From assembly GCA_026120185.1 (NCBI GenBank), contig JANUWF010003367.1:2705228-2769227 (forward strand): 64,000 nucleotides of DNA, written 5' to 3'. The position numbers and the translations under genes are program-made. A model generated the notes under the pieces. That model did no database searches, was not told where the DNA came from, and saw only the letters and a list, made by a program, of their open reading frames with translations. Shown here piece after piece: positions 1 through 42,790 of this stretch (positions are counted from its first letter, which is position 1; each line of letters opens with the position of its first letter). The stretch is from Voacanga thouarsii (Eukaryota > Streptophyta > Magnoliopsida > Gentianales > Apocynaceae).

Positions 1-237
1 TCCCGGATGATGCCGCCAATTTCTTCAGCTGCTGTTGCCAGTTGTTATTTATAACTTCTTTGTACTTCATCTTCTCATTTTCTGTAATTAATTTTTCTTT
101 TGAATTTCGGATGTATATAAAGCCAATTGAGTGATCAATGTAAAGATGAATGAAGCAGTTTTTCTTCTTAAGCAAGTGTCTTCCTTAGCTCATCTTGTGA
201 TTGTTCTTCATGCTTTGTATTTTGCTTAATTTCAACA
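1..237 (+). repeat. 5' LTR, right part only
   Basis: These bases match the last ~237 bp of the LTRs ending at 5429 and 6163. The copy ends in CA directly before the primer binding site. A TATA-like TATATAA lies near 114-120. The first ~175 bp of the ~413-bp LTR lie upstream of the window. Confidence 0.93.
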
Positions 238-249
238 TGGTATCAGAGC
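238..249 (+). other. Primer binding site of copia element 1
   Basis: TGGTATCAGAGC immediately follows the LTR. It is complementary to the 3' end of plant initiator methionine tRNA, the usual primer of many plant copia elements. The same motif recurs at 5430-5441 in the second, truncated internal region. Confidence 0.93.
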
Positions 250-479
250 GGATGATCGATCAATGTGAAGAGATTAGATCCTGATTTACTTAAGCTCATA
301 GAGGTAATCATCAAACTCAATTTCTTTATCACAGAATTGTTAATAGCATGAACTCGTTGAGTTGTGAGTTAGTTAAATCTCTTGGTCGAATTGAATTAGT
401 TGATTGGATCTGTTGTTGGAATTGATGGTTATTGAAGTAGTGAAATCTGAAGTCATAGATTTGTGAATGATTTGATGAT

Positions 480-3400
480 ATGATCATGGCTAATCAAGAG
501 ATAGCAGCCTCTAATCCTTTTTATCTGCACCCGAGTGAAAATCCATCACTCGTTTTGGTCCAGCCTTCTTTGAATGAAAGAAATTATCACCAATGGTGTA
601 GGGCAATGAGAATGGCCTTAATCTCTAAAAACAAATTAGGTTTTGTTACTGGAACAGTTAAGGCACCGGATCAAACTCACACTTCTTATCCTGCTTGGGA
701 ACAATGCAATAACATGGTTTTATCTTGGATCTTAAATTCTATCTCACCTTCTATATCACAAAGTGTGATTTGGATAGACACAGCATATGATGTATGGAAG
801 GACCTCTGTGAACGTTTTTCACAAGGAGATTCTTTCAGAATCTCTAATTTGCAGGAAGACATTTATAATTTGAAGCAAGGCTCTTCATCTGTGAATAAGT
901 ATTACACTAGTTTAAAGACCTTGTGGGAAGAACTGTTGAATTTAAGGCCATTGCCTATTTGTCATTGTAATATAAGATGTGAATGTCCAGCTTTAAATGA
1001 GGTGAAGGTTAACAATGATGCAGATTTTGTCATACGTTTTATCAAAGGTTTAAAGGAGGAGTTCAATGGAATTAAATCTCAAGTTTTACTGACTAAATCC
1101 TTTCCTTCAGTAAACCAAGCCTTCTCTATGGTTTCAACTCATGAAAGGTCTCTCAATTACAACTCAACACACTCAGATTTTCATACTTCTGCTAATCCAC
1201 AAGTGTTTGCTACAAGAAATGCTGTAGTTGAATCTCATGAGCAGAATACTAATACAGCAAGAAATGAACAAAAATTGAATGTGGTTGGAAATGTGGATAG
1301 AAGAAATCTGCAGTCAGTAGGAAATTTTGCCTATAGAAAGGGAAATGGCATGAACAGGAGAATACAATGTACTTTTTGTGGGTTGCAAGGTCATACAATT
1401 GAAAGATGTTATAGGAAACATGGATTTCCAGCTGGATATAGAAACAAGAACAAAAACTCAGGAAGTCAAGGATTTATGCCAGGAAATCAGAGTTACATGC
1501 CACAGATAAATTCTGTTGAAGGCAATGGTATAAAATCAGTTTCTAATGCTGCAAACCAAATTTCTGCTAGTTCACATATTTCAGGGGATTTTCAGACCTC
1601 AAAATTTGTAACTCAAGAACAATATCAGCAATTGTTGAACATGAGTCAGGCTCATCATCTTGTTCCCAAAACAAAGAACCTTGTTGATCCAGAACATATT
1701 CATTCTATCAACCAAGCTAGCCTCACACCAACCTTTTCACATTTATCTCAAGATGCTCAAAATACAGGTATCAATTCTTCAATTTGGATCTTAGATTCAG
1801 GAGCCACAGACCATATTTGTTCATGTCTAGAATATTTCACTGAATTTCATTCCACCAAAGATACTTCTGTTAAACTGCCTAATGGAGATATAGTTGAAGT
1901 TTCACATATAGGCAGTGTTCAGTTAACTCCTCATCTCACTTTGCATAAAGTTTTATTCATTCCACAATTTTCTATTAATCTGATTTCCATCAGTAAACTT
2001 TATCATCAAATGAACTGCATTATAATCTTCAAAAATGGTTGTTGTTTTGTCCAGGATCCTCATCTTGGTCAGATGATTGGATCAGCTAGGTTATGTGGAG
2101 GACTTTATCATTTTGATCTCCATCAGACCACTCCTTCTGCCAATACAGTTTCTGCTTTTACTCATGATGAGTTTTACAATAAATCTTTACTTTGGCATTT
2201 AAGACTTGGTCATATGTCTTTTAAGCAGTTAGCAGAAGTACATAAAAATGATTCTTCTGTTGTTTTACCTGCTGAAAATGTATTTTGTTCAGTTTGTCCT
2301 TTAGCTAAGCAGCATAAACTGCCTTTTCCTTTACATCAAGGAACTGCCAATGCTATTTTTGATCTAATTCACATGGATATTTGGGGACCTTTCAATACTG
2401 CTACTGTTCATGGACACAAATATTTTCTTACTATAGTTGATGATTTTAGCAGGTTTTGTTGGATTTTTCTTATGAAACAAAAATCAGAAGTAAAGCTTTT
2501 GATACAACACTTTGTTGCTTATGTTGAAACACAGTTTGATAAGAAAATTAAAATTCTAAGATCCGACAATGGTCTTGAGTTTCAGCTTGTTGATTTCTAT
2601 CTTGCAAAAGGTATTATTCATCAAACTTCTTGTCCATATACCCCTGAACAGAATGGCATTGTGGAAAGAAAACATCAACATATTCTCAATGTAGCTCGAG
2701 CTCTTAAGTTTCAGTCTCAATTACCATTAGCCTATTGGGGATATTGTGTTCAGCATGCAGTTTATCTCATAAACATCACTCCTACTTCTGTTCTGAATCA
2801 ACAAACTCCCTATGCAAAGTTATATAATAAGCAACCAAACTACAATGTTCTAAAGGTCTTTGGCAATCTAGCATATGCTTGCATTCAGCAGCCTCACAAG
2901 TATAAATTTTCCCCTAAAAGCAGGCCCTGTGCATTTCTTGGTTATTCACAATCTACAAAAAGGTTCATTCTTCTAGACTATTTTTCCAGAGAAATTTTTA
3001 TGTCTAGGAATGTTTCTTTCATTGAAAGCATTTTTCCCTTCATTCACAAGCTACCTTCTCTTACTTCTGATTTGAACTTACCTGTGCTAGCAATGCCTTA
3101 TACTTCACCTTACAATTTATGTCATTCTTCTTCTGATCAATTACCTATATCTGATTCTCAGCAATCTTCTGATTCTCACTCAAATCAGCCACATTCATCT
3201 TCCTTATCTTTGCCTGCCAGAAGATCTACGAGGCATATTATTCCTCCATCTTATCTTTCTGACTATATCTGCTCCAAGATTAATAGCATATCCACACCTC
3301 ATTCTTTACCAACTACTACTACTAGTTCACTTCTTTCATGTAATGTTAGTTCATATTCAGAACCTAAACACTATTTTGAGGCCATGCAATCCCAGGAATG

Positions 3401-4949
3401 GTGTGTAGCTATGCAGGATGAAATTTCAGCTTTAGAAGCTAATCATACTTGGCATTTAGTTCATTTACCTGTTGGAAAAAGGACAATTGGCTGCAAATGG
3501 GTTTATCGTATCAAATACAGATCTGATGGTACTATAGACAGATATAAGGCCAGACTTGTAGCAAAGGGGTACACACAGCAGGAAGGCATAGATTTCCTGG
3601 ACACATTTGCTCCTGTAGTTAAAATTACTACCATCAGGATAATGCTAGCCTTGGCAGCCAAATCAAATTGGTACATTCACCAATTGGACATCAACAATGC
3701 CTTTTTACATGGAGAATTATCTAAAGAAGTTTACATGGATTTACCACCTGGTTTTGATATTGTAGATAAGACTTTAGTATGCAAATTGGATAAGTCTTTA
3801 TATGGCCTTAAGCAGGCTAGTAGGCAGTGGAATACCAAACTCACTAGTTACTTAGTTTCTCTTGGCTTTCAGCAATCTAAATGTGATTACAGTTTATTCT
3901 TCAAAAGAACTGATAATGAATTTGTTGCCTTGCTTGTTTATGTGGATGATATACTGGTTTTGAGTAATCAATTGCCTGCCATTGTTAATATCAAAAGTCA
4001 GTTGCATTCTCAGTTCAAGATTAAAGATTTGGGGGATTTACATTATTTCCTTGGATTTGAGGTTTGCAGAAATTCATCAGGTATTATTCTATCTCAGAAG
4101 AAATATGTGCTTGACTTGCTTCAAACTTATTGCTACATTGGATGCAAATCAGTATCAACACCTCTTGACAGTAAAACTAAGCTTGCTACTGGAGATTCAT
4201 ATTTGTTTTATGATAGTTCTCTTTATAGAAGGCTTGTTGGGAAATTGTTATATTTGACTCATAGCAGGCCTTATATTACATTTGCTGTGCAGCAGCTTAG
4301 TCAGTTTCTAACTGCACCTACTGCTTCTCAAATGCAAGCAGTGTATCGAATTCTTAGATACCTTAAAGGTTCTATAAATTTTGGTATTAGTTTTCCAGCT
4401 GAGTCCAATTTTAATCTTCAAGTATTTTCAGATTCTGATTGGGCAGGGTGTGTTGATTCTAGGAAATCTACTACTGGTTTTTGCATTTATTTTGGTTCTG
4501 CACTTGTATCAAGGAATTCCAAGAAGCAATCTGTTGTTGCTCGAAGCTCTGCTGAGGCAGAATATAGAGCCATGGCACAGTCTGCTTGTGAACTCCAGTG
4601 GATTCTTCATTTGTTTAAGGAGCTTCAATTTCCTTATCATTGTCCAGTTCCTGTTTTTTGTGATAATAGGAGTGCTGTCTATCTCACTGAGAATCTAGTC
4701 TTCCATGAGAGAACCAAACATATAGAACTTGATTGTCACTTCATTCGTGATCTATATCAAGCTGGAATCATCAAGCCTCTTCCTATTTCTTCTACTCATC
4801 AACTTGCAGACATTTTTACCAAAGCCCTTCCACCAGCTTCCTTCCATCTTTTGTTATCTCATCTTGGAGTTTTGACTGATTCCAGCTTGCGGGGGGCTGT
4901 TGAAGCTGGAAAAATAGAAGCTGATGTCTCTGCTTCTTCTGCTTATTGA
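480..4949 (+). CDS. Ty1/copia gag-pol polyprotein, intact frame
   Basis: This 1489-residue polyprotein encodes the capsid-like Gag and the enzymes that copy and integrate the element. In order: a gag N-terminal domain (about 15-230, of the Retrotran_gag/UBN2 type); a CCHC zinc knuckle starting CTFCGLQGH near residue 297; an aspartic protease with DSGATDH near 439; a GAG-pre-integrase HHCC module; an integrase core with D near 633 and SDNG near 695; a reverse transcriptase with YVDD at about 1154-1157; and an RNase H with SDSDWAG and SSAEAEYRA. No stop or frameshift is seen. The last ~17 residues are read from the LTR start and are altered there by an inverted duplication. A second ATG lies two codons after the first, so the exact start is uncertain. 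It could be autonomous. Confidence 0.95.
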   Translation: MIMANQEIAASNPFYLHPSENPSLVLVQPSLNERNYHQWCRAMRMALISKNKLGFVTGTVKAPDQTHTSYPAWEQCNNMVLSWILNSISPSISQSVIWIDTAYDVWKDLCERFSQGDSFRISNLQEDIYNLKQGSSSVNKYYTSLKTLWEELLNLRPLPICHCNIRCECPALNEVKVNNDADFVIRFIKGLKEEFNGIKSQVLLTKSFPSVNQAFSMVSTHERSLNYNSTHSDFHTSANPQVFATRNAVVESHEQNTNTARNEQKLNVVGNVDRRNLQSVGNFAYRKGNGMNRRIQCTFCGLQGHTIERCYRKHGFPAGYRNKNKNSGSQGFMPGNQSYMPQINSVEGNGIKSVSNAANQISASSHISGDFQTSKFVTQEQYQQLLNMSQAHHLVPKTKNLVDPEHIHSINQASLTPTFSHLSQDAQNTGINSSIWILDSGATDHICSCLEYFTEFHSTKDTSVKLPNGDIVEVSHIGSVQLTPHLTLHKVLFIPQFSINLISISKLYHQMNCIIIFKNGCCFVQDPHLGQMIGSARLCGGLYHFDLHQTTPSANTVSAFTHDEFYNKSLLWHLRLGHMSFKQLAEVHKNDSSVVLPAENVFCSVCPLAKQHKLPFPLHQGTANAIFDLIHMDIWGPFNTATVHGHKYFLTIVDDFSRFCWIFLMKQKSEVKLLIQHFVAYVETQFDKKIKILRSDNGLEFQLVDFYLAKGIIHQTSCPYTPEQNGIVERKHQHILNVARALKFQSQLPLAYWGYCVQHAVYLINITPTSVLNQQTPYAKLYNKQPNYNVLKVFGNLAYACIQQPHKYKFSPKSRPCAFLGYSQSTKRFILLDYFSREIFMSRNVSFIESIFPFIHKLPSLTSDLNLPVLAMPYTSPYNLCHSSSDQLPISDSQQSSDSHSNQPHSSSLSLPARRSTRHIIPPSYLSDYICSKINSISTPHSLPTTTTSSLLSCNVSSYSEPKHYFEAMQSQEWCVAMQDEISALEANHTWHLVHLPVGKRTIGCKWVYRIKYRSDGTIDRYKARLVAKGYTQQEGIDFLDTFAPVVKITTIRIMLALAAKSNWYIHQLDINNAFLHGELSKEVYMDLPPGFDIVDKTLVCKLDKSLYGLKQASRQWNTKLTSYLVSLGFQQSKCDYSLFFKRTDNEFVALLVYVDDILVLSNQLPAIVNIKSQLHSQFKIKDLGDLHYFLGFEVCRNSSGIILSQKKYVLDLLQTYCYIGCKSVSTPLDSKTKLATGDSYLFYDSSLYRRLVGKLLYLTHSRPYITFAVQQLSQFLTAPTASQMQAVYRILRYLKGSINFGISFPAESNFNLQVFSDSDWAGCVDSRKSTTGFCIYFGSALVSRNSKKQSVVARSSAEAEYRAMAQSACELQWILHLFKELQFPYHCPVPVFCDNRSAVYLTENLVFHERTKHIELDCHFIRDLYQAGIIKPLPISSTHQLADIFTKALPPASFHLLLSHLGVLTDSSLRGAVEAGKIEADVSASSAY

Positions 4950-5429
4950 ATGACCTGGCAGACATGCTGGTAGAATTAGTTGAGGTGGCAGCTGAGTTGG
5001 AGGCTGAGGTGGACATGTTGAAGCTGGAAATTCATATGCAGATGTAGATGACAACTCAGTTGTCAAGTTATTGTCCACCTCAGCCTCCAACTCAGCTACC
5101 ACCTCAACTAATTCTACCAAGCATGTCCGCTGGGTCATTCAATAAGCGAAGAAGCGTAAGACATCGGCTTCTATTTTTCCAGTTTCCTTTGATCCCGGAT
5201 GATGCCGCCAATTTCTTCACTGCTTGTTGCCGGTTGTTATTTATAACTTCTTTGTACTTCATCTTCTCATTTTCTGTAATTAATTTTTCTTTTGAATTCT
5301 GGATGTATATAAAGCCAATTGAGTGATCAATGTAAAGATGAATGAAGCAGTTTTTCTTCTTAAGCAAGTGTCTTCCTTAGCTCATCTTGTGATTGTTCTT
5401 CATGCTTTGTATTTTGCTTAATTTCAACA
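4898..5429 (+). repeat. Middle LTR carrying an extra inverted LTR segment
   Basis: The normal LTR in this copy runs 5016-5429 (414 bp, TGTTGAAGCTGG to TTTCAACA). It is preceded at 4898-5015 by another LTR start followed by an inverted copy of an internal LTR stretch. The arms are 4906-5014 and 5073-5182, with a 58-bp spacer, and match except for about ten positions. A short G-rich tract just before 4898 is the likely polypurine tract. Confidence 0.88.
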
Positions 5430-5751
5430 TGGTATCAGAGCGGATGATCGATCAATGTGAAGAGATTAGATTCTGATTTACTTAAGCTCATAGAGGTAAT
5501 CATCAAACTCAATTTCTTTATCACAGAATTGCTGATAGCATGAACTCGTTGAGTTGTGAGTTAATTAAATCTCTTGGTCGAATTGAATTAGTTGATTGGA
5601 ATTGATGGTTATTAAAGTAGTGAAATCTGAAGTCATAGATTTGTGAATGATTTGATGATACGATCATGGCTAATCAAGAGATAGCAGCCTCTAATTCTTT
5701 TTATCTGCACCCGAGTGAAAATCCATCACTCGTTCTGGTCCAGCCTTCTTT
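5430..5751 (+). mobile_element. Truncated second internal region of copia element 1
   Basis: This repeats the primer binding site, the untranslated leader and the first ~29 codons of gag seen at 238-575. It has scattered substitutions and lacks 12 bp present in the main copy. It breaks off inside gag and runs straight into an LTR that has lost its first two bases, so most of this second internal region is deleted. Confidence 0.9.
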
Positions 5752-6163
5752 TTGAAGCTAGAAATTCAGATGCAGATGTAGATGACAACTCAGTTGTCAA
5801 GTTACTGTCCACCTCAGCCTCCAACTCAGCTGCCACCTCAACTAATTCTACTAGCATGTCTACCAGGTCATTCAATAAGCAGAAGAAGCAGAAGACATCA
5901 GCTTCTATTTTTCCAGTTTCCTTTGATCCCGGATGATGCCGCCAATTTCTTCAACTGTTGTTGCCAGTTGTTATTTATAACTTCTTTGTACTTCATCTTC
6001 TCATTTTCTGTAATTAATTTTTCTTTTGAATTCCGGATGTATATAAAGCCAATTGAGTGATCAATGTAAAGATGAATGAAGCAGTTTTTCTTCTTAAGCA
6101 AGTGTCTTCCTTAGCTCATCTTGTGATTGTTCTTCATGCTTTGTATTTTGCTTAATTTCAACA
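5752..6163 (+). repeat. Right-hand LTR of copia element 1
   Basis: It aligns base for base with the LTR at 5016-5429 but starts at TTGAAGCT instead of TGTTGAAGCT, and ends in TTTCAACA at 6163. It lacks the inverted extra segment. Unrelated host sequence begins at 6164. Confidence 0.92.
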
Positions 6164-7996: not shown

Positions 7997-8083
7997 GCAA
8001 TGAACATTTGGAACTAGAAACAACAACAGCTTTTACAAACTTGTTCGGTCAGTTTGAATTTTCTTTGCTTCTTTGGTTGAGCT

Positions 8084-8791
8084 ATGACAAGAAAGAAGGT
8101 GAAACTTGCCTTTATCACCAACGATTCAGCAAGAAAAGCAACGTATAAGAAAAGGAAGAAGGGCTTGATGAAGAAGGTAAGTGAACTTAGCACCCTTTGT
8201 GGAATTGATGCTTGTGCTATTATTTATAGCCCATATGATTCTCAACCTGAGGTGTGGCCAAATACCTCGGGAGTTCAACGTGTGATTGCGCAGTTCAAAA
8301 GAATGCCTGAGATGGAGCAGAGAAAGAAAATGGTGAATCAGGAGACTTTTATTAGACAAAGGATTGCCAAAGCCAACGACCAGCTCAAGAAACAACACAA
8401 GGAAAACCGTGAGAAGGAGATTACTGAGATAATGTACCAAAGCTTGACAGGGAAAGGGCTGCAGAACTTGATGTTGTCGGACTTGACTGATCTCGGGTGG
8501 TTGATTGATCAAAAGCTGAAGGAGATCTACAAAAGGATAGAGTCTATCAAGAAAATGGCTCCTCAGCAGCAAGTTACACCACCGCCTCCACCACAACCAC
8601 CAGCAGTTGCAACTGGAATGCTACCAAGAGGAGTTCAAGGGCAGGAGCAGAAGCCGATGCCACATTGGTTCACTGACTGGATGAATAATCCCTCTGAGAA
8701 TATGGGGTTTGGCCATGGAGAGGAGATGATGATGCCCTTTAATGATAATAATCAGAACACAATGTGGACTAGCGCCTTCTTTCAAAATTGA
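8084..8791 (+). CDS. AGL80: Type I (M-gamma) MADS-box transcription factor, AGL80-like
   Basis: This single-exon 235-residue DNA-binding protein starts MTRKKVKLAFITND and carries a full MADS domain (about 1-60, with RKATYKKRKKGLMKKVSELSTLCG and ACAIIYSPYD in two parts). The MTRKKV start, the lack of introns and the absence of a K-box are typical of the M-gamma group around AGL80 and PHERES. The middle is lysine/glutamate-rich and probably helical. A run of prolines and glutamines lies near 163-175, and the C terminus ends in TSAFFQN. In Arabidopsis AGL80 acts in the central cell with AGL61, and relatives act in endosperm; that role here is inference. The start is fixed by the conserved N terminus. 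No defect is seen. It may be any M-gamma paralogue. Confidence 0.93.
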   Translation: MTRKKVKLAFITNDSARKATYKKRKKGLMKKVSELSTLCGIDACAIIYSPYDSQPEVWPNTSGVQRVIAQFKRMPEMEQRKKMVNQETFIRQRIAKANDQLKKQHKENREKEITEIMYQSLTGKGLQNLMLSDLTDLGWLIDQKLKEIYKRIESIKKMAPQQQVTPPPPPQPPAVATGMLPRGVQGQEQKPMPHWFTDWMNNPSENMGFGHGEEMMMPFNDNNQNTMWTSAFFQN

Positions 8792-16265: not shown

Positions 16266-16486
16266 TGTTGAAGAATGCATCTTTTGCTGAAAATTAATTT
16301 AAGAATAAGTCAACTTTTGATTTTCTATTATTTACTGATTTTAAACTAGTTAGTTTTTCAATTTTCAGAATTTTTTGGATAGGATTTTGAGCAATTCAAC
16401 TTATCCTTTTTCTTGTATAAATATGTCATCATGTCAAATGAAATGTGTGTGCTTTTTTAGCCCCATTCTACTTGTCTTTGCCAACA
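16266..16486 (+). repeat. 5' LTR of copia element 2
   Basis: 221 bp, TG...CA ends, preceded by the AGTAC target duplication. A TATAAATA box lies at 16416-16423. Confidence 0.95.
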
Positions 16487-16489
16487 AAT

Positions 16490-16501
16490 TGGTATTAGAG
16501 C
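16490..16501 (+). other. Primer binding site of copia element 2
   Basis: TGGTATTAGAGC lies three bases after the LTR. It is a one-base variant of the initiator methionine tRNA complement, common in plant copia elements. Confidence 0.85.
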
Positions 16502-16557
16502 ATCTCTTGTTCTTAAGGGCCCATGAAAGACTTATCCATACCTCATTAGTAGTTAAA

Positions 16558-19500
16558 ATGGCCTCAAGTTTCAGTACTTCACCTCCTCAGTTTTCTAGAG
16601 AGAACTATAACACTTGGGCCATAAACATGAAGGCTTATTTACAAGCCTTTGACCTATGGGAAGTGGTGGAAAGTGACTTGGATCCACCAGCATTACCAGC
16701 CAACCCAACCTTAGCCCAAATCAAATATCATATTGAGGAGAAGTCCAAAAAATTCAAAGCAAAAACCTATATTTTATCAACTCTTTCAGAAGCAGTTTTC
16801 ACAAAAATACTGTGTTGTGAAACTCCAAAGCAAATCTAGCATACACTTAGGCAGGAATACCAAGGCAATGATCAAACCAGGAGAATGCAAATATTGAATC
16901 TCAGAAGGGAGTTTGAGATTCAAAGGATGAAGGAATCTGATAATATCAAGGACTATGCAGACAAACTCAAAGTCATAGTCAACAAGATCAGATTGCTTGG
17001 GGAGGAGCTGACTGATTGGAGGATCATGGAGAAAGTTCTTGTCAATTTGCAGGAAAGATTTGAGTAAAAAATATCTTCCCTTGAGGACTCAAGAGATCTT
17101 TCGCAAATCAGCCTTACGAAGTTGACCAATGCCTTGGAAGCACAGGAACAAAGAAGGGCCATTCGAAAAGAAGTAGTGGTTGAAGGTGCATTTCAAGCTA
17201 AAGCAAAAGAAAATGCACAATCTAGTAGTTTTGGCAAAAAATAGAATGGAGATTGGAGAAGTAAGAAAGGAGTTTCAAACAATAAAAATGGAGGAAACAA
17301 AGGGAAATTTTCCCCATGTCCACACTACAAAAGGACTTCACATTCTCAGAAATATTGTTGGTACAGACCTGATATTCAATGTAGGTCATGTAAACAAATG
17401 GGGCATGTGGAGAAGGTGTGCAAGAACAAGCACCAAGGTCATCAAGTCCAAGCTATAGAAAATCAGCAAGACCAAGAGGAGCAGTTGTTTGTTGCAACCT
17501 GTTTTGTAACTAACAAAAGCAGTGATGCATGGCTCATTGACAGTGGTTGCAGTCACCACATGACTTCCGATGAGAGTATGTTCAGGCAGGTAGATAAGAC
17601 ATACATCTCAAAAGTTAGAATCGGTAATGGAGATTCTTTAGAAGTCAAAGGAAGAGGAGTTGTAGCAGTTGAGACTCCAAAAGGTTCCAAATTCATTTCA
17701 GACGTGTTATATGTACATTAAATTGATCAAAATCTTTTAAGTATGGGACAGCTACTGGAAAAGAATTATTCTGTATTTTTCAAAGATAACACATGCATGA
17801 TATGTGATTCTACTGGTTGTAAGTTATTGTCTGTAAAGATGAAAGATAAGTGCTTCTCGTTAGATTGGAAACATGTTGTTTGTGCATATTCTAGTTCAGT
17901 TGATGAATCATGACTTTGGCATAAAAGGTTGGGGCATATCCATTATTCTGCATTGTAGTTTTTGCAGAGAAAGCAACTTGTGCAGGACATGTCAGTAATT
18001 TCTCCTAAATCTGAAGTTTGTGAAGTTTGCCAATTTGGAAAGCAATTTAGATTGCCATTTCCAGCCAACAAAACTTGGAGGGCCAGTGAAAAGCTTCAGC
18101 TTGTACATACGGCTGTTTGTGGTCCAATGAAGATCCTCTATTTTAATGGTAGCAGGTATTATATTGCTTTCATAGATGATTTTAGCAGAATGTGTTGGGT
18201 TTATTTCATAAAATCAAAATCTGAAGTTGCTAATATTTTTTGGAAATTTAAGAACTGGATTGAGAATCAATTTGGTCTGAAAGTGAAAATGGTTAGATCA
18301 GACAATGGGACTGAATACACATCTAGAAAGTTTAACAAATTCTGTGAAGATGCAGGCATTGAACACCAATTTTCAGCAACTTATACTCCTCAACAAAATG
18401 GAGTCAGTGAAAGGAAGAATATGACAATTATGGAGATGTCAAGGTGTTTTCTATTTGAGAAGAAAATGCCTAAGGAGTTCTGGGCTAAAGCTGTCAATAC
18501 TTCAGTATATTTACTGAATAGACTTCCAACAAAAACTCTAAAGGGGAAGATACCATTTGAGGCTTGGCATGGTTATGCACCTTCTTTGCAAAATCTGAAG
18601 GTGTTTGGTAGTTTGTGCTACACACATATTCCAGACGTGAAAAGAGAGAAATTAGATTACAAGTCAGAGGTTGGAATTTTTGTTGGCTATAGCAGCACCA
18701 CCAAAGGTTACAGAATATATCAACCTTTAAAGCAGAAGGTAATAGTCAGTAGAGACATCAAGTTCAATAAAAATTCAGCTTGGAATTGGGAAAAAACAGA
18801 AAAGGATCCTATCCAGCCAATTTCAAGTTCTGGTCAGCCAACTTCAAGGCCTATACTCATAATACAAGATCAGCAAAGCGATGATGACATAGTTGATCAG
18901 CAAGAGGATAACATACTTGATGACGAAACATATGACCATACACCTGTTAGAGGTACAAGGTCATTTTTTTATATTTATGCTAGATGTAACCTAGCTGTTT
19001 TGGAGCTTGCAGGATATGAAAAAGCTGCAAGGGATCCAACGTGGATTGATGCAATGAAGGAGGAGTTGAGGATGATAGAGAAAAACCAAACATGGATCTT
19101 GGTGGACAAACCTAATCACAAGAAACCCGTTGGGGTAAAGTGGGTGTACAGGACTAAGCTCAACTCTGACGGATCTATCAATAAATACAAGGCAAGGCTT
19201 GTAGTAAAAGGATATGCTCAACAGTTTGGGGTGGATTTTTCAGAAACTTTTGCACCAGTTGCAACGCTTGACACTATTAGAATGCTTTTGGCATTGGCAG
19301 CTCAAAAGACTTGGAAAATATATCAACTTGATGTCAAATCAGCTTTTCTAAATGGTTATTTGGAGGAGAAAATCTTTATTGAGCAGCCAGATGGTTTTGT
19401 AGTACAAGGAAAAGAGGACAAGGTTTATCTACTTAAAAAGGGCTTGTATGGTCTAAAACAAGCTCCAAGAGCCTAGTACAGCAAAATTGATAATCATCTA

Positions 19501-20539
19501 CTCAAGATTGGTTTTCAAAAGAGTTTAAGTGAATCAACTCTGTATGTAAAAATTTCTAATGATGATCTTATCACAATTTCTTTATATGTTGATGATCTAC
19601 TTGTAATTGGTAGCAATGCAGGACTGGTGCAACAATTTAAAGATCAAATGATGCAAGTTTTTGAGATGATTGACCTTGGAGAGATGTCTTTTTTCCTTAG
19701 CATGGAAATTCAACAACAGGAGAAAGGGATATTTGTTGGACAGTTTAAGTATGCAAGAGAAGTACTTAAAAAGTTCAACATGGAAAATTGCAAGTCTGTA
19801 AGTACGCCTCTGATGCAAAATGAGAAGTTGAGTAAAGATAATGGGACAACAAAGGTGGATGAAGGCCTATACGAAGTCTCATAGGTTGTTTAATGTATTT
19901 AACAGCAACAAGGCTAGATATTTTATATTTTGTAAGTTTTTTGTCCAGATTCATGCATTGTGCAAGTGAAGTACATTTTCGAACTGCTAAAAGAGTGCTT
20001 AGATATGTTAAAAGCACAGCAAATTTTGGAGTTTGGTTTGGAAGATCTGATAGGTTAAATTTGCATGGTTTTTGTGATAGTGATTGGGGTGGATATAGTG
20101 ATATGAGGAGTACTTCTGGATATTTTTTCGAGTCTTGGTTCGGGTTTTTTTCTCGGAGTTCGAAGAAATAAGATGTCATAGCTCAATCAACTCGCTGAAG
20201 CATAATATGTTGTCATTCTTTGGAGTCGTTAATCAAGCCTTATGGCTAAGAAAGCTAATGACAGATTTAAATCATGACCAGAAGGAGCCCATAACAATAT
20301 TTGTTGATAATGAAGCTGCTATATCTATCTCTAAAGAACCAATTTTTCATGGCAAGACAAAGCATTTTAAGATTAAGTACTATTTTCTTAGAGAAGTTCA
20401 GAGAAACAAAGAAATTTTTTTGATACATTGCAGAAGTGAGGATCAATTGGCTGATATTCTTACAAAGGCTTTATCCAAAGCCAAGTTCGAAGACCTGATG
20501 ATGAGTTTGGGGATTTGCAGCAAAAGAAGTAAGGAGGAG
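16558..20539 (+). pseudogene. Degenerate copia gag-pol polyprotein
   Basis: The frame starts MASSFSTSPPQFSRENYNTW, a gag start. Further along are a zinc knuckle (CRSCKQMGHVEKVC, about 17380-17421), a protease (LIDSGCSHHM), an integrase (FIDDFSRMCWVYF and RSDNGTEY), a reverse transcriptase (KYKARLVVKGYAQQ, YVDDL) and an RNase H (CDSDWGG, FVDNEAA). It is broken by stops near 16837, 17065, 17242, 17719, 17911, 17956 and 19474, and by shifts of frame near 19880-19895 and 20100-20200. It cannot yield a functional polyprotein. Confidence 0.93.
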
Positions 20540-20760
20540 TGTTGAAGAATGCATCTTTTGTTGAAAATTAATTTAAGAATAAGTCAACTTTTGATTTTCT
20601 GTTATTTGCTGATTTTAAGCTAGTTAGTTTTTCAATTTCCAGAATTTTCTAGATAGGATTTTGAGCAATTCAATTGATCCTTTTTCTTGTATAAATATGG
20701 CATCATGTCAAATAAAATATATGTGCTTTTTCAGCCCCATTCTACTTGTCTTTGCCAACA
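20540..20760 (+). repeat. 3' LTR of copia element 2
   Basis: 221 bp, same length as the 5' LTR, directly after a purine tract and followed by AGTAC. Confidence 0.95.
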
Positions 20761-20765
20761 AGTAC

Positions 20766-37345: not shown

Positions 37346-37428
37346 AAATATTATTATATATATATTTAATAAAAAATTATATAAATATACTTTTCGTCCT
37401 CAACTTTTCCTTTTTAAAATTATAATAT

Positions 37429-37824
37429 TGTTATGAATATATTAAATTAGTGAAAGGTCCACTAATTAGTGGAGGTTCCACTAATTATGAATTTATGTGA
37501 ATTATTAGAGAAGATTTTTATAAATGTCTACCATTTAGTAAAGACACCACTAATTAAGATTAGGGGAAGATGATGTATGCTATGATGTATTCCACTAATT
37601 AGAGCTCTATAAATAGAGTTATTCTCTAAATTTGTGATACACCTTTATTTTGTGAAAGAAAGATTAGTAAAAGAAAGATTAGAGAAAATTGTGAGAGAAA
37701 AGAAAGAGAGAAATTCTTGTGCAAAGATTAGTGTGTAGTGTAAATATTTTATTCTAACACTCTTGTGCAAAGATTAGTGTGTAGTGTGAAGATTTTATTC
37801 TAACACTACTTAAATTTTATAACA
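37429..37824 (+). repeat. 5' LTR of copia element 3
   Basis: 396 bp, ends TG...CA. It has a 20-bp local duplication around CACTAATTAGTGGAGGTTC that the 3' LTR lacks. Near its end is a 46-bp tandem pair (37715-37760, 37761-37806). A TATAAATA box lies near 37609-37617. Confidence 0.93.
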
Positions 37825-37842
37825 CGTTATCAGCACGAGTCT
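37825..37842 (+). other. Primer binding site of copia element 3
   Basis: CGTTATCAGCACGAGTCT directly follows the LTR. This motif is found at the same place in many plant copia elements. I do not assign the tRNA. Confidence 0.7.
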
Positions 37843-37888
37843 CTGCCGTTATTAAAGCCAGAAGACAGGTACGCATTTATTAATCTCT

Positions 37889-38550
37889 ATGGTTAACCTT
37901 GCTAAACTCAAATTTGTAACCCTTGATATTTCTGAAAAAAAATTATATGTCATTAGTTCTCAATACAGAAATACATCTAAATATTGAAAAGAAATATTGG
38001 ACCACCTGAAGATGGTCGTACTACCAAATGTACGGTATGAATGATTGCACCTGAAGTTGTAAGATTTAAAAACCATGAACTCCGCGATGTATAAAATTAC
38101 ATTTCAGTTAAAATTATGCGGAAAAAAAGTTACTGATGAAGATATCTTGGAGAAGACATTTTCCACTTTTCATACCTCGAATATTGTCATGCAGTAACAA
38201 TATCGAGAAAAAGGGTATCCAAAGTTGACAGATTTAATATGAGCTATTATTGAGAAATCATGAAGCCAGATGAACTGACTCAACAGCACTCCCAAAAGTG
38301 AATGTTGTTAACTCAAGCAGAAGCCATCGTTATAATCGTAATTGTGGCAGTGACCGTAGTTATAGTCATGGACACACTCGATATTTCCCTTATCACAGAG
38401 AAATACTGGCTACCTGATGTGGAACAGAAAGGATAATAAGGGAAAAAGATATGTCCAGTAATAAAAGGATATTTCCAATAATAATACGCATCAAATTGTT
38501 GAGATGTTACATTCGGATGTTAATATACTACATTACTATTAACAGTTCCA
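37889..38550 (+). pseudogene. Degenerate gag fragment of copia element 3
   Basis: It opens MVNLAKLKFVTLDISEKKLY, a typical gag start of this copia lineage, then breaks up with stops and frameshifts. The last resemblance to gag ends near 38550, next to a 10-A run. The zinc knuckle and protease are not found. Confidence 0.8.
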
Positions 38551-38590
38551 AAAAAAAAATCATAAGTCACTTTTATTTCCTTCATTCATC

Positions 38591-39888
38591 TCATTGGTGT
38601 TCACGTGAACTTGATGATGCATACTTGTAATTGTTCTTTTTCAATATAGCTAATAAATCTCGGGTGAATGTTTGTAGTTGTTTTGTTTCCATGTTTACAT
38701 TAGAGAAAGACAAACAATTAGGAATTATGGACTTCAGCTCCTCTTCTTCCGCATCCTTCTCATTTTCCTTCCCCTTTGAGCCAGCATCTAAACTAGCAGT
38801 AGAATTAGCCGTGAAGTTACTGTGAAATGAGTTTTGGGATTTTATGATCCCCTTAAGTTTATTATACTTAAGTTTCTCATTATATTTGGCCTTGAAGTAT
38901 GCTTGTCTCCATTTCTGTGTTTGGTCCTCCAACTGCGTATCAGGACTTTCTTCCACCAACTGCTTTTCACATTCCAATATCTCAATGGCTTCTTTCAACT
39001 TCGTTTCAGCCATATGTCCTCCTTCTTCTTTATTTTGCATCTCCTGTAAATCGAAGTGATATCATCGGTTATTTACTTATAAATCTTTCATAGTTTCATA
39101 CTTGCAAATTATAAGTGTGTGTGTGTGAGAGAACCTGAACATTCTGGATTAGGGTCTCCAAGCTCATCAACTTCCTGTGAGGCCATCGACGAATTCCTAA
39201 CTCCATACATCTGTTCTTGAGACTGGTTAAGCCAATATTCAATTCTTTGGCCGTGCTCTTGATTGGTAGGTAAAAATACTGCAAAATGGTTTCTCTTGAT
39301 AGAGTCTGGGAGTTATTGTCATTCTTCTCTCTCTGCCTCTTAATCCTCTTCTTCTCTATAGGAATTTCGTCTGAAATAATATCTTGAATTTCGATATTAT
39401 TCATGTCATAAATCCTCACTCCAAATTCGTTACCAAAATCACTCATTATTTCGCCTAAAAAAGAAAATAATATCAATAAAGATAATACCATTCAAAATCC
39501 ATGTTTGAATATATGATAACCTGGAATCATATTCTGGCCAAAATCTATTAGAGAGTATAAAGGATCATGCACAAGCATATCCTCATTCAGAGGAATAGCA
39601 TCAAAAGCAGTCTCTTGCATAGGCAGATCAAATTGGTCCCAAGCAGTATATTCACTGATTTACATCAAAACAAACCAAAAAATAGTTTAATTTCATTGTC
39701 AAGTACACTAAAAACAAATGGAAACCCTCAAAGGTATCTCACCTAAAATTAGGAAAGGAAAACATATCAAAATCTTCTGCATTAGAATTAGGAGGAAGCG
39801 ATTGGTTTGGAAAGAAAAATACATCAAAATCTGCTGCAGAAACCAAGTCAAACTTTGATCATGTCTCAAATGAATTATGAGTCTCCAT
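38591..39888 (-). CDS. RKD: RKD-type RWP-RK transcription factor gene nested antisense in a copia element
   Basis: Minus-strand exons 39888-39743, 39654-39521, 39454-39135 and 39043-38591 join in frame at GT-AG sites to 350 codons. Residues 145-196 are a full RWP-RK domain (SRETILQYFYLPIKSTAKEL to GIRRWPHRKLMSLETLI). An acidic N-terminal half precedes it and a lysine/glutamate-rich, coiled-coil-like tail follows. RKD proteins bind DNA and act in egg-cell and gametophyte identity in plants. Codon 10 of the first exon (39861-39859) is TGA, so either the copy is a pseudogene or translation starts downstream, e.g. at Met42 giving about 309 residues; a different first exon is also possible. A TATAT microsatellite lies about 65 bp upstream. 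Only about 300 bp separate the start from resumed pol sequence. Confidence 0.85.
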
Positions 39889-39948
39889 ATCTGCTTTGTG
39901 ATTTTGTTTTTTATGTTTACTAATGACTGATGACTGAGATATATATCA

Positions 39949-39951
<3 letters not shown>

Positions 39952-39994
<43 letters not shown>
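39952..39994. repeat. (TA)n microsatellite upstream of the RKD gene
   Basis: A run of TA dinucleotides with two interruptions lies in the presumed RKD promoter or 5' leader. Confidence 0.9.
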
Positions 39995-40189
39995 GAAGAA
40001 GAAGAAGTAGATGGTAGGTAGAGGGTCGAAAGAGAAGAAAAGACAAGAGAGGAAGAGGAAAAGTCGGTACCGAGAAGAGTGAAAAAAAAAAGATTTCTAT
40101 AATAGATTTCTTGGCATTTCCTATTTGTCATCATGTTCTTACATTTCCTTTTCTTTTTCATTATTCTCTTGTGAAATCATTATTCACTA

Positions 40190-42283
40190 AATTAGGGAGA
40201 GAACAGAAATAGTATAAGAAATATCTTGATTGGACAACATCATAAATTATCTTGATCCGCGTACAAACGCGTGTGAATTTGAAGTTCAACAGTATAATGC
40301 ATTTGTAAAGCATTGCAAATCAAATGTCAGACGCTTTTATTGACTCCAGAAGAGTAACAAAATCGCATATTCCAACTATAGATGCTCCTATTCAACTTGA
40401 AGTTCCAACAAAACAAAAGATTATACCTATAGCTGCTAAGCCAAAAACACGCTAGAAGTGTAGCCAACCTCTTGGTTCTAAAGATAAAAATCCTCGAAAG
40501 AAAAGAGGATTAAATGTTCCAGATGTTCATATTGATGACAAATAACCAGAAGTTAATGAAAGTAATATTGAAATTTCTATCAATTATACCACTTCCGATA
40601 GAAGTTGGAATCGGATAAAAACAATTATTGATAATAGGTTTGCATACAATATATCTCTTGATGTTATACAGGATAGTGATGATCCTGAACCAATATCAGT
40701 TGATGAATGTCGGCAAAGAAAAGATTGGCTACAATGGAAAGATGCGATTCAATCAGAGTTAAATGCACTGACACAACGTGAAGTCTTCGGACTTGCATTC
40801 CGAACACCAGAAGATGTAAAACCTATTGGCTACTAATGGATATTTGTGCGAAACCGCAATGAAAATAATGAAATCGTACTATATAAAGCACGGTTAGTAG
40901 TCTAAGATTTTTCACAAAGACCAGGTATTAATTATAATAAAACTTATTTTCCTATTGTTGATGCTATTACACTCCGATATATTATCAGTTTGGTAATACA
41001 TAAAAAGATATATATGCGCCTATTAGATGTTGTCACTGGTTACTTGTATGAAAATTTAGAAAATAATGTTTACATGAAAATCCCCGAAGGATTTCATATG
41101 TCTGCAGCATATAAATACTATCCTCGTAAAAATTACTCTATCAAATTATAGAAATCATTATATGGCCTGAAGCTATCTGAGCGCATATGGTTCAATCATC
41201 TTAGTGAATAGTGATTGAAAGCGGGATTTAAAAAATGACTAGATATGTCCATGTATTTTTATTAAGAAATCTGATTCTAAATTTGTGATATTAGATATAT
41301 ATGTTGATGATATTAATCTTATTGGAACTCCTGAAGAGCTCCAAGAAACAATGGATTATTCGACATCAAGGATGATCGTAAAATTACACTTTGCCTTAAT
41401 TTATAAATTGAATATTTGGAAAGTAGAACATTTATTCAATATATACAATAAAAGTTCTAAAAAGATTTGACATGGATAAAGCATATCCATTGAGTATTCC
41501 AATGATCGTCCGGTCATTAGATGTGAATAAAGATCTTTTCCAACCTCAAGAAGAGGATGAAGAATTTCTTGGTCCTAAAGTACCATATCTCAGTGCTATT
41601 GGTGCATTGATGTATCTTGCTAACAATACACGATCTGATATTGCTTTTGTCGTCAATTTATTAGCAATATTTAGTTCTTCACCAATACGACGACATTGGA
41701 ATGAAATTAAACAAGTCCTTGGATATCTCCAAGGTACAATTGATCTCGGATTATTTTATTCAAATAAAACCAGCCCAATATTGATAAGTTATGCAGATGC
41801 TGGTTATTTATCTGATCCACATAAAGCACGTTCTCAAACGGGCTATCTATTTACATGTGAAAATACTGCTATATTATGGCGCTCTACAAAACAATTTATA
41901 ACAGCTACTTCTTCAAATCATGCTGAAATTATAGCCATTCATGAAGCAAGTCGAGAATGTGTATGGTTAAGATCCATGATTCATTATATCCGAGAAAGTT
42001 GTGGATTATCATCGATCAAAGATATTCCAACTCCTCTTTATGAAAACAATACAGCTTGCATAGCTCAATTACGAGGAGGATATATTAAAGGAGATCGGAC
42101 ACAACATAGGTCACCAAACTCTAGAAGAAAAGTGAAATTGATGTGCTACAAATTCGATCATGTGACAACCTCGCAGATATTTTCACGAAGACTTTACCGA
42201 CTGCAACATTTGAGAAGTTGAGATATAAAATCGGTATGCGTCGGTTTAAAGATTTAAATGAGTCATCTTATCAGGAGGAGTAA
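40190..42283 (+). pseudogene. Degenerate pol fragment of copia element 3
   Basis: Copia pol resumes at the integrase C-terminal region (DPRTNACEFEV, then DSRRVTKSHIP). Reverse transcriptase follows (KDAIQSELNAL, YKARLVV, IYVDDINLIG near 41301), then RNase H (SYADAGYLSDPHKARSQTG, NNTACIAQLRGGYIKGDRT). Stops near 40453, 40543, 40836 and later, and frameshifts, inactivate it. Confidence 0.9.
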
Positions 42284-42409
42284 TAAATAGACATATAGAA
42301 TAATATACTCTTTTTTCTTTACTAGATTTTTTTTTTCCATTGAGTTTTTATCTAGTAAGATTTTAACGAGGCATATTCTTTATGTAATGGATGAACATCC
42401 AAGGGGGAG

Positions 42410-42785
42410 TGTTATGAATATATTAAATTAGTGAAAGGTTCACTAATTATGGATTTATGTGAATTATTAGAGAAGATTTTATAAATGTCCACCATTTAGT
42501 GGAGACACTACTAATTAAGATTAGTAGAAGATGATGTATGCCATGATGTATTTCAGTAATTAGAACTCTATAAATAGAGCTATTCTCTAAGTTTGTAATA
42601 CACCATTATTTTGTGAAAGAAATATTAGTGAAAGAAAGATTAGAGAAAATTGTGAAAGAAAAGAAAGAGAGAAATTCTTGTGTAAAGATTAGTGTGTAGT
42701 GTGAATATTTTATTCTAACACTCTTGTACAAAAATTAGTGTGTAGTGTGAAGATTTTATTTTAACACTACCCAAATTTTATAACA
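42410..42785 (+). repeat. 3' LTR of copia element 3
   Basis: 376 bp, preceded by the purine tract AAGGGGGAG and followed by the AATAT target duplication. It carries the same 46-bp tandem pair as the 5' LTR (42676-42721, 42722-42767). Confidence 0.93.
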
Positions 42786-42790
42786 AATAT

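Follow-up and report, generated by a model that had tools for sequence, protein, structure and literature searches.

How does a plant regulatory gene, introns included, come to lie backwards inside a retrotransposon, and is it of any use there? The question is raised by a stretch of 64,000 nucleotides from Voacanga thouarsii (contig JANUWF010003367.1; the whole stretch is hereafter called the window), in which positions 37429-42785 are occupied by an old Ty1/copia insertion that carries, between its gag and pol arms, an antisense four-exon gene of the RKD/RWP-RK type. The account that we favour, and consider fairly probable as a whole, is that a copia element captured one host RKD gene in antisense, that the chimera was amplified to about 2,500 copies and mobilised in trans, and that the RKD reading frame has been under selection.

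An antisense RKD gene within a copia element

The anatomy of the window copy is listed below; all positions are those of the window, and LTR stands for long terminal repeat.

37424..37428, no strand: left target site duplication, AATAT
37429..37824, plus strand: 5' LTR, 396 bp
37825..37840, plus strand: putative primer binding site CGTTATCAGCACGAGT, directly 3' of the 5' LTR
37827..38464, plus strand: gag arm, all three frames broken; part of it matches native copies at 73-84%
38465..38590, no strand: link that separates the gag arm from the RKD stop codon; most relatives have a shorter one
38591..39043, minus strand: RKD exon 4, including the stop codon
39044..39134, minus strand: intron 3, 91 bp, GT-AG
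39135..39454, minus strand: RKD exon 3, containing the RWP-RK domain
39455..39520, minus strand: intron 2, 66 bp, GT-AG
39521..39654, minus strand: RKD exon 2
39655..39742, minus strand: intron 1, 88 bp, GT-AG
39743..39888, minus strand: RKD exon 1, with TGA at codon 10 (39859-39861)
39889..40172, minus strand: RKD 5' flank borne by the element, with an AT microsatellite; putative promoter
40173..42270, plus strand: pol arm, comprising the last part of the integrase region, reverse transcriptase and, by alignment, RNase H; broken in the window
42401..42409, plus strand: polypurine tract AAGGGGGAG, before the 3' LTR
42410..42785, plus strand: 3' LTR, 376 bp
42786..42790, no strand: right target site duplication, AATAT

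The initial annotation of this DNA had recognised matching LTRs flanked by an AATAT duplication, and both hold: the repeats lie at 37429-37824 and 42410-42785 with AATAT on either side, a 5-bp flank match that would arise by chance in about 0.2-0.3% of cases. The two LTRs differ at 26/376 aligned sites (22 transitions, 4 transversions), with 3 indels in addition, giving a Kimura two-parameter distance (K2P) of 0.074. The primer binding site CGTTATCAGCACGAGT also follows the 5' LTR in L010, L011, L014, L016 and L017, and in slightly different form in L022 (designations of this kind refer to loci elsewhere in the genome). Membership of the Ty1/copia class is indicated by paired LTRs with a 5-bp target duplication in the window copy and in L010, L014, L016, L017, L019 and L022, by a copia-type RVT_2 domain (1.2e-59 in L022, where the reverse transcriptase is open, unlike in the window copy) and by an integrase that lies before the reverse transcriptase.

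A gag start and a pol end had likewise been proposed to frame the gene. The pol end stands, with RVT_2 at 1.7e-9 (Pfam) and an alignment over 40687-42238 to an intact copia within the window, interrupted by 10 stops and 4 frameshifts; on this alignment the arm would also include RNase H. The gag arm has no credible Pfam match, and we take it for the gag side of the element because of its partial matches of 73-84% to native copies in the same genome. The right RKD|pol junction lies at about 40173. On the left side, the match between most relatives and the window breaks off at 38464 and resumes at 38578, the link in these relatives being shorter. The window shares its longer link with L004 (92.5%, gap-free and of equal length) and L007 (74%, of similar length), and from these alignments the longer link is probably older than the shorter one; the older copies (window, L004, L007) retain it, and most others have lost it.

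The RKD gene itself occupies 39888-38591 of the minus strand, with 1053 nt in four exons, and its three GT-AG introns (88, 66 and 91 bp) and RWP-RK domain (Pfam, 4.6e-19) agree with the gene structure predicted earlier. RWP-RK is the sole domain of the 350-residue product at E up to 0.1, and the PB1 domain, the mark of the NLP branch, is missing, as befits a protein of the RKD type; exon 3 of L022 and L019 gives RWP-RK at 5.7e-23. The gene had also been called complete, which does not apply to this copy: codon 10 is a premature TGA, and the next in-frame methionine is codon 42. Codon 10 reads TGG in five of six aligned relatives and TTG in the sixth, L009, and a stop at the same codon in L012 rules out that the lesion is private to the window. 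Exon 1 of the window copy is shorter than in those relatives in which the whole exon could be aligned, which have extra copies of an internal repeat; its length varies through such extra copies in L010, L012, L014 and L043, the N-terminal part expanding and contracting.

Among 33 gene-spanning copies, the window copy included, the ATG is present in 32, all six splice dinucleotides in 18 and a fully open gene in one; the partial genes of L039 and L042 are counted here, and L018, L023 and L003, where the stretch or the gene is cut, are left out. The open gene belongs to L019, a copy with identical LTRs, and combines an ATG and six canonical splice dinucleotides with an open frame of 381 codons. 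The RKD of L041 was rejected as intact on account of a stop in exon 1.

In the RKD block of L009, L010 and L024 the alignment displays unusual CAG/CTG differences (CAG to CGA or CGAG, CTG to CG or TCG), which look like long-read base-calling errors at methylated CHG sites and would then imply that the elements are CHG-methylated. Because such differences in several copies resemble base-calling error, frameshift counts from single copies are upper bounds.

Copy number and the three forms of the family

The search for other copies with the same junctions, which the initial annotation had proposed, was run on the window's own assembly (1.3457 Gb, 1,848 contigs) and returned thousands, an amplification that had not been foreseen. 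In the RWP-RK family search 150 of 3,618 first-look candidates were scored, all 150 above the curated cut-off, and 23 loci were sampled from the scored list (the 8 best and 15 picked by hand). Twenty-one of these 23 sit in the same element with at least one shared junction; in each of them RKD adjoins the gag arm, the pol arm or both. The two exceptions, L001 and L002, scored highest and resemble host RKD genes.

Whole-genome pattern counts, allowing up to 3 mismatches, gave 2,578 matches (1,301 + 1,277) for a 40-mer of the RWP-RK exon, 2,495 (1,236 + 1,259) for the RKD|pol junction, 1,653 (828 + 825) for the RKD 3' tail and 659 (352 + 307) for the protease of RKD-free relatives, with reversed-pattern controls at zero for all four patterns; the counts are per assembly, which may include both haplotypes, and more diverged copies are missed. 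At G000:C198:1602464-1604353 four exact RWP-RK exon matches stand about 617 bp apart, possibly a tandem array of an RKD piece. No relative was found in the viral contigs and genome contigs scanned, nor in a sequence search of PDB.

The loss of protease and integrase reported for the window copy was borne out by relatives that hold both at the same place. The RKD-bearing form, which we call A, has RKD where the protease-integrase segment belongs and a gag in pieces (window, L022), and is thus not an autonomous copia. When 20 of 40 scored gag-arm hits were taken irrespective of RKD, with a query from L022, itself outside the 20, RKD was present in 14 (12 whole, 2 partial). The other six have instead protease-integrase sequence that meets the pol arm at position 40175 of the window, and retain 84 bp of the RKD block ahead of the protease (form B). 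The protease-integrase frame is open over 462 codons in L030, upstream of the pol arm, with Pol_BBD (1.3e-7), gag_pre-integrs (9.3e-8) and SH3_retrovirus (4.2e-15) above their cut-offs and rve (1.7e-6) just below its own; it is more or less broken in the other five. Twenty further copies, chosen from exact protease matches, comprised 11 with the A-type gag arm and the RKD tail, seven with a native gag and no tail (form C) and two that were indeterminate. Of the seven native-gag copies, six contain a CCHC motif within an open frame of 179-219 codons; the 11 that combine gag arm and tail contain none.

The joint between these forms can be read directly. It is TTTGT-AATTGAGC-TGACAAAT in the RKD copy L041, GGAAG-AATTGAGC-ATTTGATT in the native copy L045 and TTTGT-AATTGAGC-ATTTGATT in the recombinant L026, AATTGAGC being an 8-bp microhomology common to RKD exon 4 and the native gag-pol sequence. 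On the simplest reading, the native form C would be a helper, the RKD-bearing form A a cargo carrier without protease and integrase, and form B a recombinant produced by template switching.

The course of events may be pictured as follows. A Ty1/copia family would have taken up one host RKD gene, with its introns and 5' flank, antisense between gag and pol, where the captured gene would have replaced the protease-integrase segment to give form A. The founding event may have taken place at the DNA level, by insertion into or repair of a copia copy, or through a template switch onto antisense read-through RKD RNA; a copy from spliced RKD mRNA is excluded because the three introns are present, and a cargo that is antisense and keeps three introns does not correspond to classical, sense and intron-less retro-transduction. 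That there was one founding event is argued from the junctions common to the sampled copies. Introns antisense to a transcript are not spliced, and those of the captive could survive retrotransposition because they would not be recognised in the element RNA; the suggestion, made at the outset, that an antisense captive could keep its introns fits the 18 of 33 copies in which every splice dinucleotide is preserved. Form A, multiplied to about 2,500 copies, has in the copies examined a broken gag, no protease or integrase and a retained reverse transcriptase, and would presumably be mobilised in trans by form C, in which a gag with a CCHC zinc knuckle is followed by protease and integrase. Template switching by the reverse transcriptase between A and C would yield form B with its 84-bp RKD scar, and selection would keep the RKD reading frame working during the spread of the family.

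Age, selection and rival explanations

Both LTRs lie within 13 of 15 ten-kilobase stretches, and exact target duplications are present in 10 of 13 two-LTR copies, six of them found by script at 5 bp (L010, L014, L016, L017, L022, L019) and four read by eye (L011, L012, L015, L020); L009 and L024 agree at 4/5 bases, and L013 has none. The differences between LTRs, counted by script in nine copies, are 0/367 in L010, 0/354 in L019, 2/367 in L022, 5/367 in L014, 7/367 in L016, 8/354 in L009, 8/341 in L011, 11/367 in L017 and 22/354 in L013. Since the LTRs are identical in two of the nine dated copies (L010 and L019), RKD-bearing elements have moved recently. At plant substitution rates of 0.7-1.3e-8 per site per year the window insertion would be about 3-5 million years old, and a synonymous divergence near 0.2 would place the split between subfamilies, and hence the capture, some 8-16 million years ago or earlier.

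Selection was estimated as dN/dS, the ratio of nonsynonymous to synonymous substitution, by the Nei-Gojobori method. For RKD, 12 younger copies give 0.40 among themselves; against those 12 the window copy gives 0.43 and L015 0.30, and the window copy against L015 gives 0.32; the corresponding values for the reverse transcriptase-RNase H region are 0.675, 0.79, 0.47 and 0.62, RKD being the lower in all four comparisons, and shifted-frame controls over RKD range from 0.52 to 1.59. The first estimate used copies detected by RWP-RK hits, which are biased for that domain, and was redone on the gag-arm picks, whose query came from an RKD-bearing copy. In 12 of these, dN/dS is 0.36 (0.26-0.48) for RKD, 0.23 (0.11-0.45) for the RWP-RK domain and 0.41 (0.30-0.58) for the rest; L039 and L042 do not enter into the 12. 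Eight older copies compared with the same 12 give 0.40 (0.31-0.53) for RKD. This moderate evidence, drawn from sequence comparison, suggests and does not prove purifying selection on RKD during the spread of the family, and constitutes the weak step of the account.

Several results weigh against that account. Among the eight older copies themselves RKD dN/dS reaches 0.49 (0.38-0.65), and outside the RWP-RK domain 0.57 (0.44-0.77), near neutral. A neutral simulation with the observed transition bias returns mean dN/dS values of 0.56-0.72 rather than 1, with 2.5% points at 0.36-0.49, which overlap some of the RKD values, and bootstrap contrasts of RKD outside the domain with the reverse transcriptase-RNase H region give P = 0.079, 0.016 and 0.146, two of the three not significant. 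Synonymous divergence between subfamilies, taken from window 39888-38594 and 40546-42105 against L009-L024, is 0.19-0.21 for RKD versus 0.10-0.12 for reverse transcriptase-RNase H, a roughly twofold disparity that is unexplained. Moreover, 32 of the 33 gene-spanning copies are not fully open, although some of the breaks may be assembly errors. Finally, a search for the parental locus, also proposed by the initial annotation, did not find it among the host-like RKD genes seen, L002 and L001 matching the RKD of L019 at 46% over 116 residues and at 34% over 132 residues respectively. The simulation, the older copies, the bootstrap and the broken genes would all suit a neutral hitchhiker, that is, a capture and amplification as described above with an inert protein, whose apparent conservation would stem from a bias in counting, a small number of master copies and the recency of the spread. 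Against this speak the position of RKD below reverse transcriptase-RNase H throughout, the low ratio of the RWP-RK domain even among copies picked by the gag arm, the higher values of the wrong frames and the fully open gene in a copy with identical LTRs, and we regard an inert passenger as possible, if on the doubtful side.

The capture itself has been weighed against other origins of the arrangement. A nested DNA insertion had been envisaged at the outset. A DNA transposon, a Helitron or double-strand-break repair would then have placed the RKD segment in a resident copia at this very site; the retained introns and 5' flank would accord with it, as would the ability of repair linked to transposable elements to move plant genes (PMC3445842). 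However, the assembly has about 2,495 instances of the right junction, and the RKD block is present in copies whose two LTRs are identical. At that block a test for MULE, CACTA, hAT and Helitron structures found 49 loose inverted pairs, none with a target duplication of at least 3 bp (15 random region pairs gave 4-85), and Helitron-like trinucleotides that form no convincing pair of ends; searches for target duplications around the block likewise gave nothing beyond chance. A MULE-like 9-bp direct repeat, GAACAGAAA (38422, 40201), is within chance, repeats of 7-10 bp being sampled from 200 random region pairs, and a late one-off insertion, read from a decay clock of the window copy in which RKD is less damaged than expected, was overturned by the genome search. 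As an account of the window locus the one-off insertion is refuted and we hold it to be highly improbable; a DNA-level event could still explain the founding copy. Gene capture by the element, the other origin initially put forward, is upheld by the 21 of 23 loci, by the recurrent junction and by the presence of the gene in copies with identical LTRs and target duplications. The odd CAG/CTG differences between assembly copies might point to an artefact that fused an RKD gene with copia arms, but the junction stands on many contigs, and copy number together with independent insertion sites, marked by the exact target duplications of 10 of 13 two-LTR copies, refutes this and leaves it a negligible probability. 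As regards form B, the high identity of its 84-bp tail with that of form A would also be met if the tail were native element sequence to which RKD became fused, form B then being ancestral. The tail, however, is absent ahead of the protease in all seven native copies, six of which have there an open gag frame with the CCHC motif, and an 8-bp microhomology at the joint is as expected from template switching, which makes this order of events improbable.

Other features accompany the chimera in the window. An intact copia frame of 1,492 amino acids, in which Pfam recognises gag, integrase and reverse transcriptase domains, extends over 471-4946, and LTR-like repeats within 1-6163 (1-571/5193-5751, 5018-5429/5752-6163 and 1-237/5927-6163) suggest a tandem LTR arrangement. 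Another copia element, this one broken, lies at 16266-20761, its terminal direct repeats being 93.7% identical; an open frame with a MADS (SRF-TF) domain (7.7e-19) is located at 8081-8788.

Parallels and significance

Gene capture by LTR retrotransposons is a known phenomenon, and the comparisons made here draw on parts of the papers cited. As in LTR retrotransposons that have transduced host genes, Bs1 among them, the host sequence is internal and is spread by the element (PMC13317346, PMC7264820, PMC3726574). Transduced genes are usually sense to gag-pol, transduction-like open reading frames (ORFs) being present in one or few copies (PMC7264820), and the Bs1 segments are described as having no full-length ORFs (PMC13317346); here, unlike in transduction of the Bs1 type, a whole intron-bearing gene is carried antisense in about 2,500 copies. 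The same source describes Bs1, Rider and chimeras due to template switching, and cites surveys in which captured genes of rice and sorghum showed signs of selection (PMC13317346). An antisense gene in many copies of a family is also known from maize Grande (gene23), rice RIRE2 and Silene Retand, whose ORFs are placed downstream of pol, before the 3' LTR, and, in the part of the source concerned, have no clear protein relatives (PMC7264820), whereas in the present case the antisense gene stands between the gag and pol arms and is a recognisable RKD transcription factor. Chimeras ascribed to abnormal template switching are likewise represented by BARE-2 and Veju terminal-repeat retrotransposons in miniature (TRIMs) (PMC13317346); in contrast to these, what is foreign here is a developmental gene of the host, and the family includes, beside its native and cargo forms, recombinants that bear a scar of that gene.

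With regard to the cargo, CitRKD1/CitRWP of citrus and MiRWP of mango are RWP-RK proteins of similar length, 354 amino acids in CitRKD1 (PMC6090715, PMC9671666, PMC10709545), although CitRKD1 has six exons (PMC6090715) and the element RKD four. In citrus and mango an insertion lies in the promoter of the host gene (for mango MiRWP, PMC10709545), whereas here the gene itself is the cargo. In the full-text searches made of an open-licence library no report was found of a complete developmental regulator carried antisense, with its introns, at such a copy number; a pearl millet pangenome paper that these searches brought up describes no such element in the parts concerned.

What this family shows is that a retrotransposon can take up an entire transcription-factor gene, introns and all, in reverse orientation, and that the resulting element, devoid of protease and integrase, can be multiplied to about 2,500 copies; native, cargo and recombinant forms are found together, with a joint that can be read. 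The system offers natural tests of whether a selfish element gains from carrying a regulator of egg-cell and embryo identity, and of the effect that thousands of RKD copies, as a source of protein or of small RNA, have on the host RKDs and on reproduction. A more far-reaching reading, speculative and in our judgement unlikely, is that RKD serves the element as an accessory gene, whose product would either bind the LTR directly or alter cells of the ovule, the egg or the young embryo so that the element is transcribed in them and inherited. If this were true, an embryo-identity regulator would exist in the plant in thousands of mobile copies, some of which may affect the formation of embryos without fertilisation.

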